DNA of 52,031 nt, taken from positions 1 to 52,031 of the forward strand of contig CANRDP010000007.1 in the NCBI GenBank assembly GCA_947629415.1, in the 5' to 3' direction. The notes below the pieces were generated by a model. It made no database searches. It was given only the letters and a program-made list of their open reading frames with translations, and was not told where the DNA came from. Each line of letters begins with the position of its first letter. The first letter of the stretch is position 1. The stretch comes from an uncultured Bacilli bacterium. Its GTDB lineage: Bacteria > Bacillota_I > Bacilli_A > RFN20 > CAG-449. Positions 3,742 through 45,036 of the stretch are shown here, in pieces. A program made the position numbers and the translations under genes.

Positions 3742-3795
3742 ACGCAGGAAAAAGCCTGTGTATATGTCCTTTTCGGGACATTTTATTTTTAAAAG
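3742..3795 (+). promoter_or_regulatory. Two consecutive hairpins in tyrS leader, second terminator-like
   Basis: ACGCAGG-AAAAAG-CCTGTGT followed by TGTCC-TTTTC-GGGACA-TTTTATTTTT just upstream of the tyrS RBS. Confidence 0.4.
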
Positions 3796-3804
3796 GAGAA
3801 GACG

Positions 3805-5034
3805 ATGACATTTATTGAAGAATTAAAGAAAAGAGATTCGTTTTTTGATACGACGGATCCGGATATTGAAAAATATTTGGAAGAAAATAAAGTTACTTTT
3901 TATTTAGGATGTGATCCTACAGGAAATTCTCTTCATGTCGGACATCTTTTTACCTATATTGTGATGAAACGAATGGAACAATATGGCCATCATCCGGTTC
4001 TTCTTGTCGGAGGTGCTACCGGATTAATCGGTGATCCGAAGATGCAAGGTGAAAGGAAAATGCTTTCTTTGGAAGAAGTTAAAGAAAATGCCCGTCTTTT
4101 AAAAGAGCAAATCCGTTCTTTGTTTCATGTGGAAACCATTGTAGACAATTACGATTGGATTTCGCGAATTTCTTTGATTGAATTTTTTCGGGATTTCGGG
4201 AAAGAATTTAATGTTGCTACGATGCTGAATAAAGAAATTGTACGTTCCCGTTTGGATGAAGGAATTTCTTATACCGAATTTTCTTATCAAATGCTTCAGG
4301 CCATGGATTGGCTGGAACTTTATATGAGTCATGATTGTACCATTCAATTGGGAGGTCAGGATCAATGGGGAAATATTACTGCAGGTATGGATTTGATTCG
4401 AAAAAAATGCGGTCCGAATGCAAAAGTGTATGGATTGACGGTTCCTTTAATGCTTCGCAGCGATGGTACGAAATTCGGTAAATCGGAAGACGGAAAATCC
4501 ATATGGCTCGATAAAAACCGAACATCTCCTTATGAGTTTTATCAATTTTGGATTAATATTCCGGATGAAGAAGTTATTCAACGATTAAAACAATTTACTT
4601 TTTTGCCTTTAGAAGAAATTGAAAAAATAAAAGAAGAAATGGAAAAATGCCCGGAAAAAAGAGTGGCACAAAAAACTTTGGCTTTTGAAGTAACAAGTTT
4701 TGTTCACGGAAAGCAAGCAAGTATCGAAGCACAGCACATTTCGGAATCTTTATTTTCCGGTGATATTGCTTCTTTAACCGCATCTGAAATAGAAATGGGT
4801 TTTCAGGATTTAAAAACTACGGAAGGAAATAAAAGCCTTGTGGATGCTTTAATAGAAACGGGATTGGCCACTTCGAAAAGAGAAGCACGTGAATTTATTT
4901 TGAATGGAGCGGTTTCTTTGCAAGGAAAAAAAGTGACGGATGTTCAATTGTTTTTGACAAAAGAGTTGGCTATTGAAGAAAAATATATTCTTTTGAAAAG
5001 AGGAAAGAAAAAATACGCATTGGTGCGATTTTAA
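3805..5034 (+). CDS. tyrS: Tyrosyl-tRNA synthetase
   Basis: HVGH (HIGH-type), GGATGLIGDP, GGQDQWGNI, KFGKS motifs, C-terminal S4 domain. Confidence 0.97.
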   Translation: MTFIEELKKRDSFFDTTDPDIEKYLEENKVTFYLGCDPTGNSLHVGHLFTYIVMKRMEQYGHHPVLLVGGATGLIGDPKMQGERKMLSLEEVKENARLLKEQIRSLFHVETIVDNYDWISRISLIEFFRDFGKEFNVATMLNKEIVRSRLDEGISYTEFSYQMLQAMDWLELYMSHDCTIQLGGQDQWGNITAGMDLIRKKCGPNAKVYGLTVPLMLRSDGTKFGKSEDGKSIWLDKNRTSPYEFYQFWINIPDEEVIQRLKQFTFLPLEEIEKIKEEMEKCPEKRVAQKTLAFEVTSFVHGKQASIEAQHISESLFSGDIASLTASEIEMGFQDLKTTEGNKSLVDALIETGLATSKREAREFILNGAVSLQGKKVTDVQLFLTKELAIEEKYILLKRGKKKYALVRF

Positions 5035-5043
5035 GGTGATAAA

Positions 5044-5859
5044 ATGAAAATACGTTTGGTACATACGATTTTGGAAATTCACTTTCTTTATGAACAGGAT
5101 TATCTGGATTTTTTCTCACCTTATATGGTGGAAGAGGGAACACCTACGTACACCATTTTTCAAGATCTTTATTCCGAGGATGTTGAAAAAGGTGATTTGA
5201 AAATTACATCGAAAAATTATCAACTGTATGTAAAAGATCAAATAGAAACGCAATATCAATTTGCGGAAGGGAAAGAGGAATTTGAAGGAAAAATTGTTTA
5301 TGACAAGGACAAAATTTCTTTCAGTACAAAAGATGTTTACAATAAAGAAATGACATTGATTTTATTGCAATACATTGCTTCGCGAATTCTTTCAAAAGAA
5401 TATGCTTGTGTTTTAATGCAAGGAAGTGCTTTTTCTTTGAACGGCAAAGGAATATTGTTGACGGGTTCTTATTTTCATGAGCAAAAAGAATTGATGGAAG
5501 AATTTCTTCGTGAAGGTGCCGTGGTGATTAATGATATCCGAAATTATATTGTAAAAGAAGACGATCAGGTTTTTATATACGGAAATCCTTGGTCGAAAGA
5601 AAAAGAATGGCAACAAAATGTTATTGTTCCTTTAACTCATGTGATTTCTTTGATGTCCGGTCAGGAAACGATTTGTCGCAGGATGGATAAAAGAGATGCC
5701 TTTTTGAAATTAATGGGAGAAGCGGTTACTCCGCAGGCGGAAAATGATCTTCCGAAGTGGAATGAGACTATCGATGCTATTTTATCTTGTCCCTGTTACC
5801 TTGTTTTGGGAAAAAATCCGAAAAAAATATTTGCGGAAATTAAAAAGGAAATACTCTAA
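5044..5859 (+). CDS. HprK/PEPCK-like fold protein with degenerate P-loop
   Basis: GKGILLTGSYFHEQKELMEEFLREGAVVINDIR...VFIYGNPWSKE...NVIVPLTHVISLMSGQE matches the layout of HPr-kinase-like proteins (G.SG.GKST...GA.iiNDD...yG.PW.G...apL..i.fL.qg), but without Walker A. Confidence 0.6.
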   Translation: MKIRLVHTILEIHFLYEQDYLDFFSPYMVEEGTPTYTIFQDLYSEDVEKGDLKITSKNYQLYVKDQIETQYQFAEGKEEFEGKIVYDKDKISFSTKDVYNKEMTLILLQYIASRILSKEYACVLMQGSAFSLNGKGILLTGSYFHEQKELMEEFLREGAVVINDIRNYIVKEDDQVFIYGNPWSKEKEWQQNVIVPLTHVISLMSGQETICRRMDKRDAFLKLMGEAVTPQAENDLPKWNETIDAILSCPCYLVLGKNPKKIFAEIKKEIL

Positions 5860-5918
5860 GATACGGGAAAAATTCTTTTTTAGTTTCGAATTTTATATCT
5901 TCTCAAGTGAAAAAAACA

Positions 5919-5927
5919 TGATATAAT
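5919..5927 (+). promoter_or_regulatory. Extended -10 promoter (TGaTATAAT) for kduI operon
   Basis: TGATATAAT 30 nt upstream of kduI ATG. Confidence 0.55.
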
Positions 5928-5956: not shown

Positions 5957-6787
5957 ATGGACGTTCGTTATTGCTCACATCCTGATGATTCAAAGTTTTA
6001 TACAACGGATGAATTGCGGGAAAAATACCTGATTGAAAAGGTTTTTGTTCCGGATGAAATTTCGTTGACGTATTCACATCAGGATCGAATGATTGCTGGC
6101 GGTGCTATGCCAGTAAGTAAGGCTTTGGTTTTGACTGCGGGAGATGAACTTCGCGCCGATTATTTTTTACAAAGAAGAGAATTGGGTGTAATTAATATCG
6201 GAGGAGAAGGAGTGATTACTTTAGACGATAAAAAATATACGATGGCGTCCCGTGACGGTCTTTATGTCGGAATGGGAGTGAAAAAAGTAGTTTTTGAGTC
6301 AAAAGATAGTAAAAATCCTGCTAAATTTTATTTAAATTCTGCGCCGGCACATACGAGTTATGAAACGGTGCATATTCCGTTTGAAAAAGCAAACCATGTT
6401 CCTCTTGGTGACAGCAAGAATATGAATAAGCGCGTCATCAATCAATACATTCATCCTTCGGTTTTGAAATCTTGTCAACTTTCCATGGGAATGACGGTAT
6501 TGGAAGAAGGTAGTGCCTGGAATACATGGCCATGTCATACGCATGAACGCCGTATGGAAGTTTATTTATATTTTGGCTTGGATGAAAATGATCGTGTTTT
6601 CCACTTTATGGGTCAACCGACAGAAACAAGACATATTGTAATGCGAAACGAACAAGCGGTTATTTCGCCTTCTTGGTCGATTCATTGTGGTTTTGCTACA
6701 AAAAATTATGCTTTTATTTGGGGAATGTGTGGAGAAAATCAAACATTCGATGATATGGATGTTTGCGATATGAAAACTTTCCGTTAA
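5957..6787 (+). CDS. kduI: 5-dehydro-4-deoxy-D-glucuronate isomerase
   Basis: Full-length KduI-like: YCSHPDDSKFYTTDELREKYLIEKVF, RMIAGGAMPV, WNTWPCHTHERRMEVYLYF, PSWSIHCGFATKNYAFIWGM. Confidence 0.96.
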   Translation: MDVRYCSHPDDSKFYTTDELREKYLIEKVFVPDEISLTYSHQDRMIAGGAMPVSKALVLTAGDELRADYFLQRRELGVINIGGEGVITLDDKKYTMASRDGLYVGMGVKKVVFESKDSKNPAKFYLNSAPAHTSYETVHIPFEKANHVPLGDSKNMNKRVINQYIHPSVLKSCQLSMGMTVLEEGSAWNTWPCHTHERRMEVYLYFGLDENDRVFHFMGQPTETRHIVMRNEQAVISPSWSIHCGFATKNYAFIWGMCGENQTFDDMDVCDMKTFR

Positions 6788-20310: not shown

Positions 20311-22464
20311 ATGAAAAAGAAAATTCTTTTGATGGGACTTGCTTCCGTAGGTCTCATGGGTCTTGCATCTTGTAACAATGATTATCAACCGGATCTTTCA
20401 GAAAAAGTTGAACTCAACATGTCTGTTCAATATGCAAAGGCCGAAACACGTATGGCTTTCCATGCTGAAGCTACATCAGTTACATTACCATACACGGATC
20501 CATCCGGAAATGTGTATAATGATGGTGATTTGAAACCAGTTTGGAAGGCAGTATCTGACAAATTGAATATCAAAATTAATGATGTTTCACCAAAAGATTC
20601 TGTGAATGATTCCTTTAAAGATTGGCAAACAAGAGGCTTTGACAATGTTGATGTTTTCCAAGGTGGTGCCACCAATATTCAAAACTATGCTACCGAGCAT
20701 CCGGATGCCATCTTAGACTTAAATCAATACATGGATAAACTTCCGAATTTCCGTCGTTTCTTAGATGGTAACGCAGTCGTGAAGAGAACCATCACAAACT
20801 ATAGTGGTAATATCTACTATGCACCATATTTCGATGGATACGATGACATTGAAAAAATGGTATTGATGAGAGTTGACTTTGTAAAGAAACTTTTAGATGA
20901 TAATTTACCTTCCAATTTGGATGAATCAACGACAATTACTGCTTCTTATGATACCTTCTTACCGGAAACTTTTGAAAAGAAAGTTAAGGTAATGAAATCC
21001 GATTATAAAACAACAGAAGAAATTACCAAAAAATATACCAAGAATCCGATTACACGTCAAAATGAAAAAGGAACATTAAATGGCAAAAATTTGGTTCAAG
21101 CTTTGCGTGAACATATCGATCAAACCTACAACAACTACTATGGTACAAAACGTTCTGATTTGTTTATTGGCCCGAATGCAGCATATGATGCCGATGAATT
21201 AGTTGCTTTATTACGTTGTGTTAAAGCAAATCCGGCTTTCCTTACCGGAAGTGCAAGTAGTGAAATGTATCCAATTTTCAACCGTGAAAATAAAAACTCC
21301 CGTGTTGGTGACCTCTTTGGTTTAATGGGACAAATGTTCGGTGTCCGTGGAATGATGTCCAAGAACGGATATTTGTACATCAATAGCAATGGTGATGTCG
21401 TTGATGCAAGATGGCAAGATGATACTGTCGAAGCATTAAAACGTTTCCATCAAATGTATGCCGAAGGATTAATCCTTCCGAACTTCACTTCCGATACTGC
21501 TGGTGGTGGTACCGGTGGATCCATCTATAAGGCTGTTCATGGTAAGAATGTCGGTTTCTGTTCCTTTGACTATGCACAAACACAGACCGTCTATCATGAA
21601 ACATCCGTAGCGAAAAATATTGCAGATTACGATTTTGAACCTGTCATTTCTCCTGTTGCCAAATGGAATGGTAAAGATGAATTTACTCGTTTCCATGAAT
21701 CTTGGAGATCCGTTAAAACCGAAGGTTGGGGAATTTCCGGTTATGTGAAAAATAATCCGGCAAAATTAGATCGTTGTTTAGCTCTCTTTGATTATTTCTG
21801 GTCGGAAGAAGGACAACAATTGATGTCCTATGGTCCGGATTCCTATATTGCAAAAGATGCCAATGGTAATCTTGAAAAAATTGATTATATGGGAAAACAA
21901 GTTCCAAAACTTTCCGATGCAACCGTAAAACAATTAAAAGAAATTGCTGATTACAACTATACGAACTACTATCGTTATTATGTTGGTGGTACATTCCCAA
22001 TCGGTTATATTAAAGAACAAGGTATGGAATATCAATGTAATGCACCGCAAGGAAAAGCAGGACTTGATAAAGTTGAAAATGCCATTGCTCTTGGCGTTAT
22101 CGAATATCCGGATGTCACTTGGACAAATAGTGATAAGTGGAGATGGATTGTTCCGACAACCTTTGCTTTCGGTTCTGTCGATGCAAACGCTGTAACCCAA
22201 AACTATGTTGCATTAAATGACTACGTTAATAATACCAATGGTAAGATTAACAACTGGTCTGCTATTGTTATGTATGGATTTGGTACAACTGGACAAATCG
22301 ATGATGGTTCAACAGAAAAATTAAGTAATGGATCTGTGGTCAAAAAACCGCCGGTATCCGTCACAACACTTTCTGAATCTGCCTACAAGACTTATATGAA
22401 GACCGAATTAAAAGGTGATTCTTACGTCGAGCTTCATAACACAGCTTGGAAAGATATGTATTAA
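20311..22464 (+). CDS. ABC transporter substrate-binding lipoprotein (large, ~717 aa)
   Basis: Lipoprotein signal MKKKILLMGLASVGLMGLASC; LplA/YtcQ-type large solute-binding protein features and position after the two permeases. Confidence 0.88.
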   Translation: MKKKILLMGLASVGLMGLASCNNDYQPDLSEKVELNMSVQYAKAETRMAFHAEATSVTLPYTDPSGNVYNDGDLKPVWKAVSDKLNIKINDVSPKDSVNDSFKDWQTRGFDNVDVFQGGATNIQNYATEHPDAILDLNQYMDKLPNFRRFLDGNAVVKRTITNYSGNIYYAPYFDGYDDIEKMVLMRVDFVKKLLDDNLPSNLDESTTITASYDTFLPETFEKKVKVMKSDYKTTEEITKKYTKNPITRQNEKGTLNGKNLVQALREHIDQTYNNYYGTKRSDLFIGPNAAYDADELVALLRCVKANPAFLTGSASSEMYPIFNRENKNSRVGDLFGLMGQMFGVRGMMSKNGYLYINSNGDVVDARWQDDTVEALKRFHQMYAEGLILPNFTSDTAGGGTGGSIYKAVHGKNVGFCSFDYAQTQTVYHETSVAKNIADYDFEPVISPVAKWNGKDEFTRFHESWRSVKTEGWGISGYVKNNPAKLDRCLALFDYFWSEEGQQLMSYGPDSYIAKDANGNLEKIDYMGKQVPKLSDATVKQLKEIADYNYTNYYRYYVGGTFPIGYIKEQGMEYQCNAPQGKAGLDKVENAIALGVIEYPDVTWTNSDKWRWIVPTTFAFGSVDANAVTQNYVALNDYVNNTNGKINNWSAIVMYGFGTTGQIDDGSTEKLSNGSVVKKPPVSVTTLSESAYKTYMKTELKGDSYVELHNTAWKDMY

Positions 22465-42047: not shown

Positions 42048-42280
42048 CTTCAATGGCAATGAAAGAAACAGACGCCTGATTTTCTTTTGAAAGAGAGCCT
42101 TTGTTTGGTGCAAAAAGGTAAAAAAAATCAGAAACGGATCCTTCTGGAGCTGAGAAGAGGAAAGTAAAGTATTCTTCTCCGTAATAATGCGTTAAAAAAA
42201 ATGAAGAGCCCAATGTTTCGGGAACTGAGGTGGTACCGCGTCGTATAGGCGTCCTTAGAAGGACGTTTTTATTTTTTTTA
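42048..42280 (+). promoter_or_regulatory. T-box riboswitch leader of ileS
   Basis: Conserved AGGTGGTACCGCG (42228-42240) followed by terminator hairpin CGTCC-TTAGA-AGGACG-TTTTTATTTTTTTT. A plausible ATC specifier is at 42127-42129 but not resolved. Confidence 0.93.
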
Positions 42281-42291
42281 GGAGGAAAAAT

Positions 42292-45036
42292 ATGGAAGTT
42301 AATAAAACTTTGCTGATGGGAAAAACCGATTTTGAAATGCGGGGAAATTTGTCTCAAAAAGAACCAAAAATGCTTGAGGAATGGTATCAGGACAATTTAT
42401 ATGAAAAGATTTTGAAAAAACATGAAAAAGATCCGTGCTTCATGTTGCACGATGGTCCTCCTTATGCAAACGGAGATATGCATTGCGGACACATGCTGAA
42501 TCGTATTTTAAAAGACATCGTTTTACGTTACAAAGCGATGAGTGGTCATTATACGCCCTTTATTCCGGGTTGGGATACACATGGTTTGCCCATTGAAACG
42601 GCAGTGACAAAATCCGGAGTAAATCGGAAAACAATTCCTTTATGTGATTTTCGAAAAAAATGTGAAGAATATGCAAAAAAACAAGTAGATCGTCAGATGA
42701 ATCAAGTGAAAAGACTTGGTATTATGGCGGATTTTGATCATCGCTATGTTACGTTGGATAAAAAATTTGAAAAGGCACAAATTCATGTATTTAAGGAAAT
42801 GGCATTGAAAGGGCTGATTTTTAAAGGACTGAAGCCGGTGTATTGGTCTCCGTCCAGCGAGTCTGCTCTTGCCGAAGCGGAAATAGAGTATCAAGATGTT
42901 TCTGCGACAACCATATATGTGAAATTTGATGTTTTGGATGGAAAAGGAATTTTAACTCCACAGGATTCATTTGTCATTTGGACGACAACACCTTGGACGA
43001 TTCCTGCAAATTTAGCTATTTGTTTGAATCCGGATTTGGAGTATGGTCTTTTTGAAACGGAGAAAGGAAGACTTGTTTTCTTGACTTCTTTAAAAGATAG
43101 ATTAAAGGACGAATTACAACTTTCTTCCGTGAAATTATTAAAAACTTTTTTGGGAAAAGAATTGGAATATATTAAAACCAAGCATCCCTTATATCCTCGG
43201 GAATCGATAATTATTTTGGGAGATCATGTTACAAGTGATGCCGGTACCGGATGTGTACATACCGCACCGGGACATGGTGAAGATGACTATAAAGTAGGAA
43301 GAAAATATCAATTGGAACCTTATTGTCCGGTGGATGAACACGGAAATATGGACGAGACAACGGGAGAAAGACTGCAAGGACTTTTCTATGAAAAAGCCAA
43401 TGAAGAAGTTTTGAAAATGTTGGATGAAGTTCATGCTTTGCTTGCAAAAAATACGATTGTTCACTCTTATCCGCATGATTGGAGAACAAAAAAACCGGTT
43501 ATTTTCCGTGCTACGCCACAATGGTTCTGTTCCATTGATCTCATTCGTGAGGATTTATTAAAAGAAATCGATAAAGTTCAATGGGTCCCGGAATGGGGTC
43601 GTATTCGTATGCACAATATGATCAAAGATCGTGAAGACTGGTGTATTTCCCGTCAAAGAGCCTGGGGTGTTCCTTTACCGATTATTTATGATAAAAATGG
43701 AAATGCTTTGATGGAAAAAGAAGTATTTGATTTTATCGAGGAATTAATCGGGGAATATGGAAGTGATGTTTGGTTTACAAGAAATGTCGAAGATTTATTA
43801 CCCAAAGGTTATAAGGAAAAACATCAAGATCTGGCACCATTTCGAAAAGAAATGGACATCATGGATGTTTGGTTTGATTCCGGTTCTTCTTCGCGAGCCG
43901 TTATGGTGGAAAAAGGATTGAAATTTCCCGCGGATTTGTATTTGGAAGGCTGCGATCAATATCGTGGTTGGTTTAATGCTTCTTTAATCGTCTCGGTGGC
44001 TACAGAAGGTGTAGCACCTTATCGTTGTGTTGTAAGTCATGGCTTTGTTTTGGATGGAAATGGCAATAAGATGTCAAAGTCTTTAGGAAATGGTATTGAT
44101 CCGAATAAAGTAATCAATGTGTATGGTGCGGATATTTTAAGACTCTATACCGCTACTGTGGATTATCAATCCGATGTACGTATTTCCGATGCCATTCTGA
44201 AAACCTGTGCCGATACATATCGAAAGATTCGTAATACTTTTAAATTTATGTTGGCAAATCTTTCCGATGGCGAGGAAACCTTCAATTATAAAAAAGATGC
44301 CGTGCAAAAATTTTCCAAGTATTCACAATATGTTCTGGAACGTTTAAAAGAAGTCAAAAATATTGCTTTGGAAGAATATGAACAATATAATTTTGCCAAT
44401 ATGATTCAGGAGATTCTCACTTTTTTAACTCAGGATGTTTCCGCTTTCTATCTGTCCATTGCAAAAGATCCTTTGTATTGTGATCATAAAGATGCACCGT
44501 TGCGCCGTGAAATTCAAACAGTACTATTTAAAATAATACGCGAAATTTCACTTCTTTTGGCACCGACACTTGCATTTACCATGGAAGAAGTACAAAAATA
44601 TCTTCCTTACGAAGATAAGGAAAAATATATTGTTTTGGAAAGTATGCCGAAAAAAGAAAAAGTAGAGAATGCAATTTTAGACGAATATCATGATTTCTTA
44701 TCCATACGTAATGATGTCATGAAAGCACTGGAAGAGGCAAGAAGTGAGGGAAAAATCGGCTCTTCCTTGGAAGCAAAGGTAATGTTAAAAGCAAAAGATG
44801 ACATAGCAAAAAGAATTTTGAATGCATTTACCAAAGAAGAAAGAAATTTGCTGTTTATTGTTTCCGATAATGAAGTCGATGAAGCACAAAAAGAATATGA
44901 ACATCTTTTTGTTGATGTTTTACGCCATGATGGTGAAAAATGTGATCGTTGCTGGCAATATTTCCATCAACTGGAGGAATACGAAGGAGCTCATATTTGT
45001 TCTCGTTGCAAAAAGGAATTAGAAAAACATGAATAA
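42292..45036 (+). CDS. ileS: Isoleucyl-tRNA synthetase
   Basis: DGPPYANGDMHCGHMLNRILKD, GWDTHGLPIE, KMSKSLGN, C-terminal zinc motif CDRCW...CSRCKKEL. Confidence 0.98.
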   Translation: MEVNKTLLMGKTDFEMRGNLSQKEPKMLEEWYQDNLYEKILKKHEKDPCFMLHDGPPYANGDMHCGHMLNRILKDIVLRYKAMSGHYTPFIPGWDTHGLPIETAVTKSGVNRKTIPLCDFRKKCEEYAKKQVDRQMNQVKRLGIMADFDHRYVTLDKKFEKAQIHVFKEMALKGLIFKGLKPVYWSPSSESALAEAEIEYQDVSATTIYVKFDVLDGKGILTPQDSFVIWTTTPWTIPANLAICLNPDLEYGLFETEKGRLVFLTSLKDRLKDELQLSSVKLLKTFLGKELEYIKTKHPLYPRESIIILGDHVTSDAGTGCVHTAPGHGEDDYKVGRKYQLEPYCPVDEHGNMDETTGERLQGLFYEKANEEVLKMLDEVHALLAKNTIVHSYPHDWRTKKPVIFRATPQWFCSIDLIREDLLKEIDKVQWVPEWGRIRMHNMIKDREDWCISRQRAWGVPLPIIYDKNGNALMEKEVFDFIEELIGEYGSDVWFTRNVEDLLPKGYKEKHQDLAPFRKEMDIMDVWFDSGSSSRAVMVEKGLKFPADLYLEGCDQYRGWFNASLIVSVATEGVAPYRCVVSHGFVLDGNGNKMSKSLGNGIDPNKVINVYGADILRLYTATVDYQSDVRISDAILKTCADTYRKIRNTFKFMLANLSDGEETFNYKKDAVQKFSKYSQYVLERLKEVKNIALEEYEQYNFANMIQEILTFLTQDVSAFYLSIAKDPLYCDHKDAPLRREIQTVLFKIIREISLLLAPTLAFTMEEVQKYLPYEDKEKYIVLESMPKKEKVENAILDEYHDFLSIRNDVMKALEEARSEGKIGSSLEAKVMLKAKDDIAKRILNAFTKEERNLLFIVSDNEVDEAQKEYEHLFVDVLRHDGEKCDRCWQYFHQLEEYEGAHICSRCKKELEKHE

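Follow-up and report, generated by a model that had tools for sequence, protein, structure and literature searches.

An HprK-fold protein stripped of its catalytic motifs, probably a pseudokinase stranded by cassette loss, is retained beside tyrS in a Bacilli genus

Our analysis showed that a 271-residue open reading frame of an uncultured Bacilli bacterium has lost the catalytic motifs of an HprK-like kinase family and is retained under constraint, in a genome from which three partner genes of its canonical relatives are absent. The gene lies in a window of 52,031 nucleotides, the whole stretch of DNA analysed (contig CANRDP010000007.1). The best explanation of the data as a whole, to which we assign a probability of roughly 0.6, is that a kinase was stranded by the loss of the gene cassette to which it belonged and is now a non-catalytic binding protein. 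The broader proposal, that this is a pseudokinase outside the Hanks fold, an HprK/PEPCK-fold enzyme whose active site was stripped after cassette loss and which was reused as a binder, with selection relocated towards the N-terminus and a loss that can be reconstructed stepwise, appears to us somewhat better than an even bet. In what follows, G000 denotes the window genome, G002 a second species of the genus that also has the pseudokinase, and G001 a third species with a canonical kinase. The locus in the window is composed as follows.

3805..5034, + strand: tyrS, tyrosyl-tRNA synthetase, directly upstream of the pseudokinase gene (9 nt from stop to start)
5033..5039, + strand: Shine-Dalgarno-like sequence AAGGTGA, 4 nt ahead of the pseudokinase ATG
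5044..5859, + strand: candidate pseudokinase gene, predicted HprK/PEPCK fold; 271 aa, ATG start, no internal stops
5900..5927, + strand: promoter-like site (10 of 12, TG before the -10) between the pseudokinase gene and kduI
5957..6787, + strand: kduI, first gene of the pectin/uronate locus

The coordinates of this otherwise intact frame and the motifs quoted for it in a first-pass annotation, made from the sequence without database searches, proved exact. That annotation also described the protein as following an HPr-kinase-like layout. Alone, the window protein has no Pfam or NCBIfam match and no convincing PDB match by sequence, so the recognition rested on layout only, and it was right. 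A pattern search of the genome contigs with the window protein alone also found nothing. Whole-genome searches recovered homologues, members of a large family of HprK-fold kinases, from its genus up through its family, order and class. Nearly all of those aligned have HGS/HSS, SGTGKSTH, INDDK and a P-W/F-S-G-K loop, and the series HGS...SGTGKSTH...INDDK...YGxPWSGK falls at places aligned to the layout of the window protein. The canonical orthologue in G001, at the same tyrS-kduI locus, is 44% identical to it (E 4.7e-70). A single-sequence AlphaFold2 model reached a pLDDT of 31, and we used instead a model based on an alignment of 66 sequences (65 relatives and the window protein), with a pLDDT of 94.6 and a pTM of 0.90. 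All PDB structures matched by Foldseek at E <= 0.001 were HprK/P and PEPCK (probability 1.00 or 0.99), with moderate TM-scores of up to about 0.5. In a comparison of the family profile with the genus's real HprK, the P-loop, Asp and His sites of the canonical relatives aligned (E 1.5e-05); a profile of the two pseudokinases alone gave no signal against HprK, and the case for homology is therefore made through the canonical relatives and the structure. Taken together, the motifs of the homologues, the structural matches and the profile alignment support the predicted HprK/PEPCK fold of the window protein, and with it the earlier proposal that the fold has been kept.

Although HprK/P (TIGR00679 / PF07475) has the same fold, the window protein matches neither of these models and its canonical relatives are marginal at most, with weak hits against NCBIfam models of HprK-related proteins and a single one against Hpr_kinase_C. 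The nearest named families of the canonical relatives are ScmC (TIGR04249), HprK_rel_A (TIGR04352) and HprK_rel_B (TIGR04355), with a best E of 2e-11 (locus L050), but scores do not exceed 43.7 bits against curated cut-offs of 125-200; the window protein and its G002 orthologue have no relevant score against the three models. The genome's true HprK is intact elsewhere (C9:31270-31773, 322.5 bits). The presence of this separate, intact gene and the difference in family rule out a degenerate paralogue of the housekeeping HprK. The window protein appears, from sequence comparison, to descend from a different HprK-fold family, one found in a cassette reminiscent of peptide-modification systems.

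The positions at which the window protein departs from its canonical relatives, and the N-terminal domain discussed below, are the following.

5044..5340, + strand: N-terminal domain, residues 1-99; 69% identity between the two pseudokinases, among their best conserved parts, and the least conserved part in canonical pairs
5419..5421, + strand: residue 126, Gln in the window and Glu in G002; the His of HGS/HSS in 64/64 canonical rows
5464..5493, + strand: old Walker A motif (P-loop), residues 141-150; GSYFHEQKEL in place of A-P-S-G-T-G-K-S-T-H
5530..5541, + strand: old N-D-D-K site, residues 163-166; N-D-I-R, and N-T-I-R in G002, with the second Asp and the Lys gone in both
5593..5601, + strand: old S-G-K loop, residues 184-186; S-K-E (S-N-E in G002) after a retained YGNPW

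Where the window protein thus reads QGS, NDIR and PWSKE and lacks the canonical SGxGKSTH, the canonical rows of the alignment hardly vary. The pre-loop His, S-G-x-G-K-x-T-H, Asn and the second Asp in NDD, and both Pro and Gly in the PW-GK loop occur in 64/64 rows; this count is biased, since a Walker A pattern served to retrieve many of the rows. The Walker Ser/Thr, the first Asp and the two other Lys are nearly invariant. At the Walker A position, canonical in 64/64 rows, G002 reads GSYLDGRLSL. The further homologues inspected, collected by similarity search with no motif selection, all have a GKS/T P-loop except L182, and three of them read SQTGKST or SRVGKST. L182 itself, a hit that could not be placed, is a 620-aa open frame that contains a radical SAM-like segment and is matched by the family profile; it is possibly a fusion with an HprK-like domain. 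The loss of Walker A and of the second Asp reported earlier is thus real, but the damage is larger: the pre-loop His is also gone, as are the final His in SGTGKSTH, the Lys in DDK and the GK pair in PWSGK. The associated suggestion that nucleotide chemistry has been lost is strongly supported, on sequence grounds, by the absence of the motifs from two species and their presence in essentially all remaining homologues examined. The window protein very probably does not use ATP, and a non-canonical nucleotide site is conceivable.

The G002 orthologue is 61% identical to the window protein, lies between tyrS and kduI and is equally degenerate. Seven identical substitutions within or next to the motifs are common to both proteins (A141G, S143Y, H150L, W154F, D165I, K166R and K186E), a pattern pointing to a single loss that predates the divergence of the two species. 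They form a clade with 100% bootstrap support, and their sister in the trees is the fully canonical kinase of G001, encoded between tyrS and kduI; the presence of a canonical kinase at the same place in a third species indicates that the motif loss is derived. This loss most likely happened once; the degenerate form is carried by only two species. A canonical Walker A in orthologues had been proposed as a sign of sequencing error in the window; G001 does have one, but G002 is degenerate with identical replacements, and a sequencing error or single-genome artefact is ruled out by the same loss in this second genome.

Between G000 and G002, the kinase gene differs at 0.60 of fourfold sites, with an NG86 dS of 1.9 and a dN of 0.34, giving a dN/dS of about 0.18, which is approximate because synonymous sites are about saturated. 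The same comparison gave 0.19 for tyrS and 0.26 for the neighbouring polysaccharide deacetylase gene; in codon maximum-likelihood fits, branches ran to their limits and no omega was readable. When neutral evolution was simulated at 0.5, 1.0 and 1.9 substitutions per site (300 runs each), 17-23 stops arose and 0/900 runs kept a stop-free frame. These two results, the low dN/dS at saturated synonymous sites and neutral runs that are never stop-free, led us to reject a pseudogene as the main reading. As judged from its sequence, the window gene would qualify as a pseudokinase gene, in that its catalytic motifs are lost and it is retained under selection. The Shine-Dalgarno-like sequence is also present in the other species (AAGGAGTGA in G002, GAAGGTAA in G001). 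It might nevertheless be argued that the gene is a remnant in slow decay, in which the active site was the first part to go after cassette loss and the intact frame is transient, as the missing PqqD, peptidase and nucleotidyltransferase partners, the long stem branch of the pseudokinase pair and the small genome (1.2 Mb) would allow. We consider this unlikely, since the frame is full-length and stop-free and has its Shine-Dalgarno-like site in both species despite saturated synonymous divergence, since the neutral runs never preserved such a frame, and since active relatives that are about as similar overall have a less conserved N-terminal domain.

The distribution of constraint along the protein has shifted. 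Canonical pairs of 45-64% overall identity, a small and non-independent set, show 26-49% identity in the N-terminal part and 74-86% in the P-loop. Between the two pseudokinases, the old P-loop segment is the least conserved part, with 22% or 43% identity depending on the alignment and a dN of 0.68, and block 141-150 is also the least confident part of the AlphaFold2 model (pLDDT 79). This is unlike an active site and makes it very doubtful that the old fold has gained a new catalytic activity through clade-specific residues, even though several such residues are conserved in the old site (GSY 141-143, I165, R166 and E186). The stem of the pseudokinase pair is five times longer in the kinase tree than in the tyrS tree (0.78 vs 0.16) and its tips are 1.3-1.8 times longer (0.34 and 0.32 vs 0.19 and 0.25); the tip of the canonical G001 is shorter in the kinase tree than in the tyrS tree. 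The branch lengths indicate a burst of change after the loss, followed by renewed constraint.

In most relatives whose neighbourhood was read, the kinase gene is followed by a PqqD-like gene, a gene for a 140-aa S24/S26-type peptidase, an ABC transporter and an NTP_transf_5 nucleotidyltransferase, a cassette that looks like a peptide-modification system; a few canonical loci have no peptidase gene or stand alone. This cassette is widespread in gut Firmicutes, with examples at L130:5396-9599, L131:4526-8683, L133:4818-9023, L139:2533-6673 and L142:6315-11467. Three genomes belonging to one genus (G186, G187 and G189) have a gap of about 360 bp where the cassette peptidase gene would lie (L135:6113-6474, L136:7713-8074 and L137:7923-8284), with no clear open reading frame in the L135 and L136 gaps. 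In G001, the kinase, PqqD and peptidase genes lie together at tyrS, the PqqD and S24/S26-like genes sitting between the kinase and kduI, and the nucleotidyltransferase is encoded elsewhere in the genome. No match to a cassette-type PqqD, S24/S26-type peptidase or NTP_transf_5 was found in G000 or G002, both drafts (90-91% complete) in which the locus itself is contiguous, and the pseudokinase locus retains no trace of a PqqD or peptidase gene. Among 15 related genomes, these three partners are present in 9/9 with a canonical kinase, 0/2 with the pseudokinase and 0/4 with neither (Fisher p = 2e-4, relatedness ignored; of the cassette partners, the test covered these three).

Peptide systems are known in which the producer genes have been lost and a single binding protein kept, and the window protein could on this model be an orphan decoy or immunity protein that still binds the cassette peptide of its relatives, or a similar one, and protects against it or titrates it. 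The retention of parts outside the active site and the presence of the full cassette in relatives of the same family are compatible with such a role. We regard it as decidedly unlikely, however, because nothing indicates that canonical members confer immunity and because the cassette peptide is only hypothetical; a cursory look for precursor peptides of the canonical cassette found none.

The canonical relatives resemble the kinases of modified lasso peptide clusters, which are encoded among the same kinds of gene. These clusters contain an HPr-kinase homologue, a PqqD-like B1 protein, an ABC transporter and, in some, a nucleotidyltransferase, and the kinase phosphorylates the C-terminal Ser of the precursor (PMC8498205); a rumen survey also covers parts of modified lasso peptide clusters (PMC7533575). 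PadeK of paeninodin and its relatives are described as HprK-homologous lasso peptide kinases (Zhu et al., 2016, as cited in PMC8498205). The cassettes seen here differ in having an S24/S26-type peptidase, with no lasso cyclase or transglutaminase-type protease noticed, and the window protein differs from PadeK, compared by description rather than by alignment, in having neither catalytic residues nor a cassette. Hanks-type bacterial pseudokinases have likewise lost catalytic residues while keeping fold and open reading frame, with a presumed non-catalytic role (reviewed in PMC12599244), but their fold is another one, the window protein being a predicted P-loop HprK/PEPCK-fold pseudokinase; the review contains no mention of HPr-type kinases. 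Pseudokinases as a kind, and HprK-fold kinases with PqqD-type partners from lasso peptides, are thus already known. In the open-licence literature searched, we found neither an HprK-fold pseudokinase nor active and dead orthologues at one locus in a genus. Bacterial pseudokinases described so far are mostly of the Hanks fold. The occurrence of active and dead forms at one locus means that the conversion of an enzyme into a non-enzyme can be reconstructed step by step, and makes the fate of an enzyme after removal of its pathway directly testable. The case also draws attention to the widespread kinase-PqqD-peptidase-ABC-nucleotidyltransferase cassette.

For the stranded kinase that we favour, the following course may be envisaged. 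The ancestor would have been an active P-loop kinase of the cassette, which probably phosphorylated a ribosomal peptide or a protein. The common ancestor of the two species would have lost the PqqD, peptidase and nucleotidyltransferase partners, and in the kinase the Walker A loop with its lysine, the catalytic Asp, the His ahead of that loop and the GK loop would have disappeared. The protein would have changed fast for a time before coming under new purifying selection on the N-terminal domain and the strand region 158-190. Its present role is most likely non-catalytic binding, presumably through the N-terminal domain, as a scaffold, adaptor or titrating regulator. The binding or sensor role suggested in the first-pass annotation would fit this retained and relocated constraint and, in contrast to the fold and the motif loss, is still an inference; TyrS, HPr/HprK and a residual peptide are hypothetical candidate partners.

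The same annotation had placed the gene beside a pectin locus. The kduI gene is indeed downstream, but by its spacing the pseudokinase gene groups with tyrS, with which it is probably co-transcribed and which is also the upstream neighbour of the orthologue in G002 and G001; the promoter-like site before kduI comes from a scan that yields no more sites than shuffled sequence. A regulator of carbon catabolite repression that binds HPr or HprK would match the adjoining pectin genes, the HprK-like fold and the intact true HprK of the genome. This role seems most improbable to us, given a sequence that places the protein in the cassette kinase family and not with HprK, the grouping with tyrS together with the promoter-like site, and canonical relatives that elsewhere do not adjoin pectin genes. 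Within the pectin/uronate region of the window, a 717-aa open reading frame (20311-22464) has no Pfam match at E <= 1e-5. A T-box was sought upstream of tyrS and none was found; a terminator-like hairpin lies shortly ahead of the tyrS start (3764-3781) and could either terminate the unit upstream or act as an attenuator. A T-box leader (111.9 bits) is present elsewhere in the window, at 42050-42259, upstream of a 914-aa open reading frame (42292-45036).
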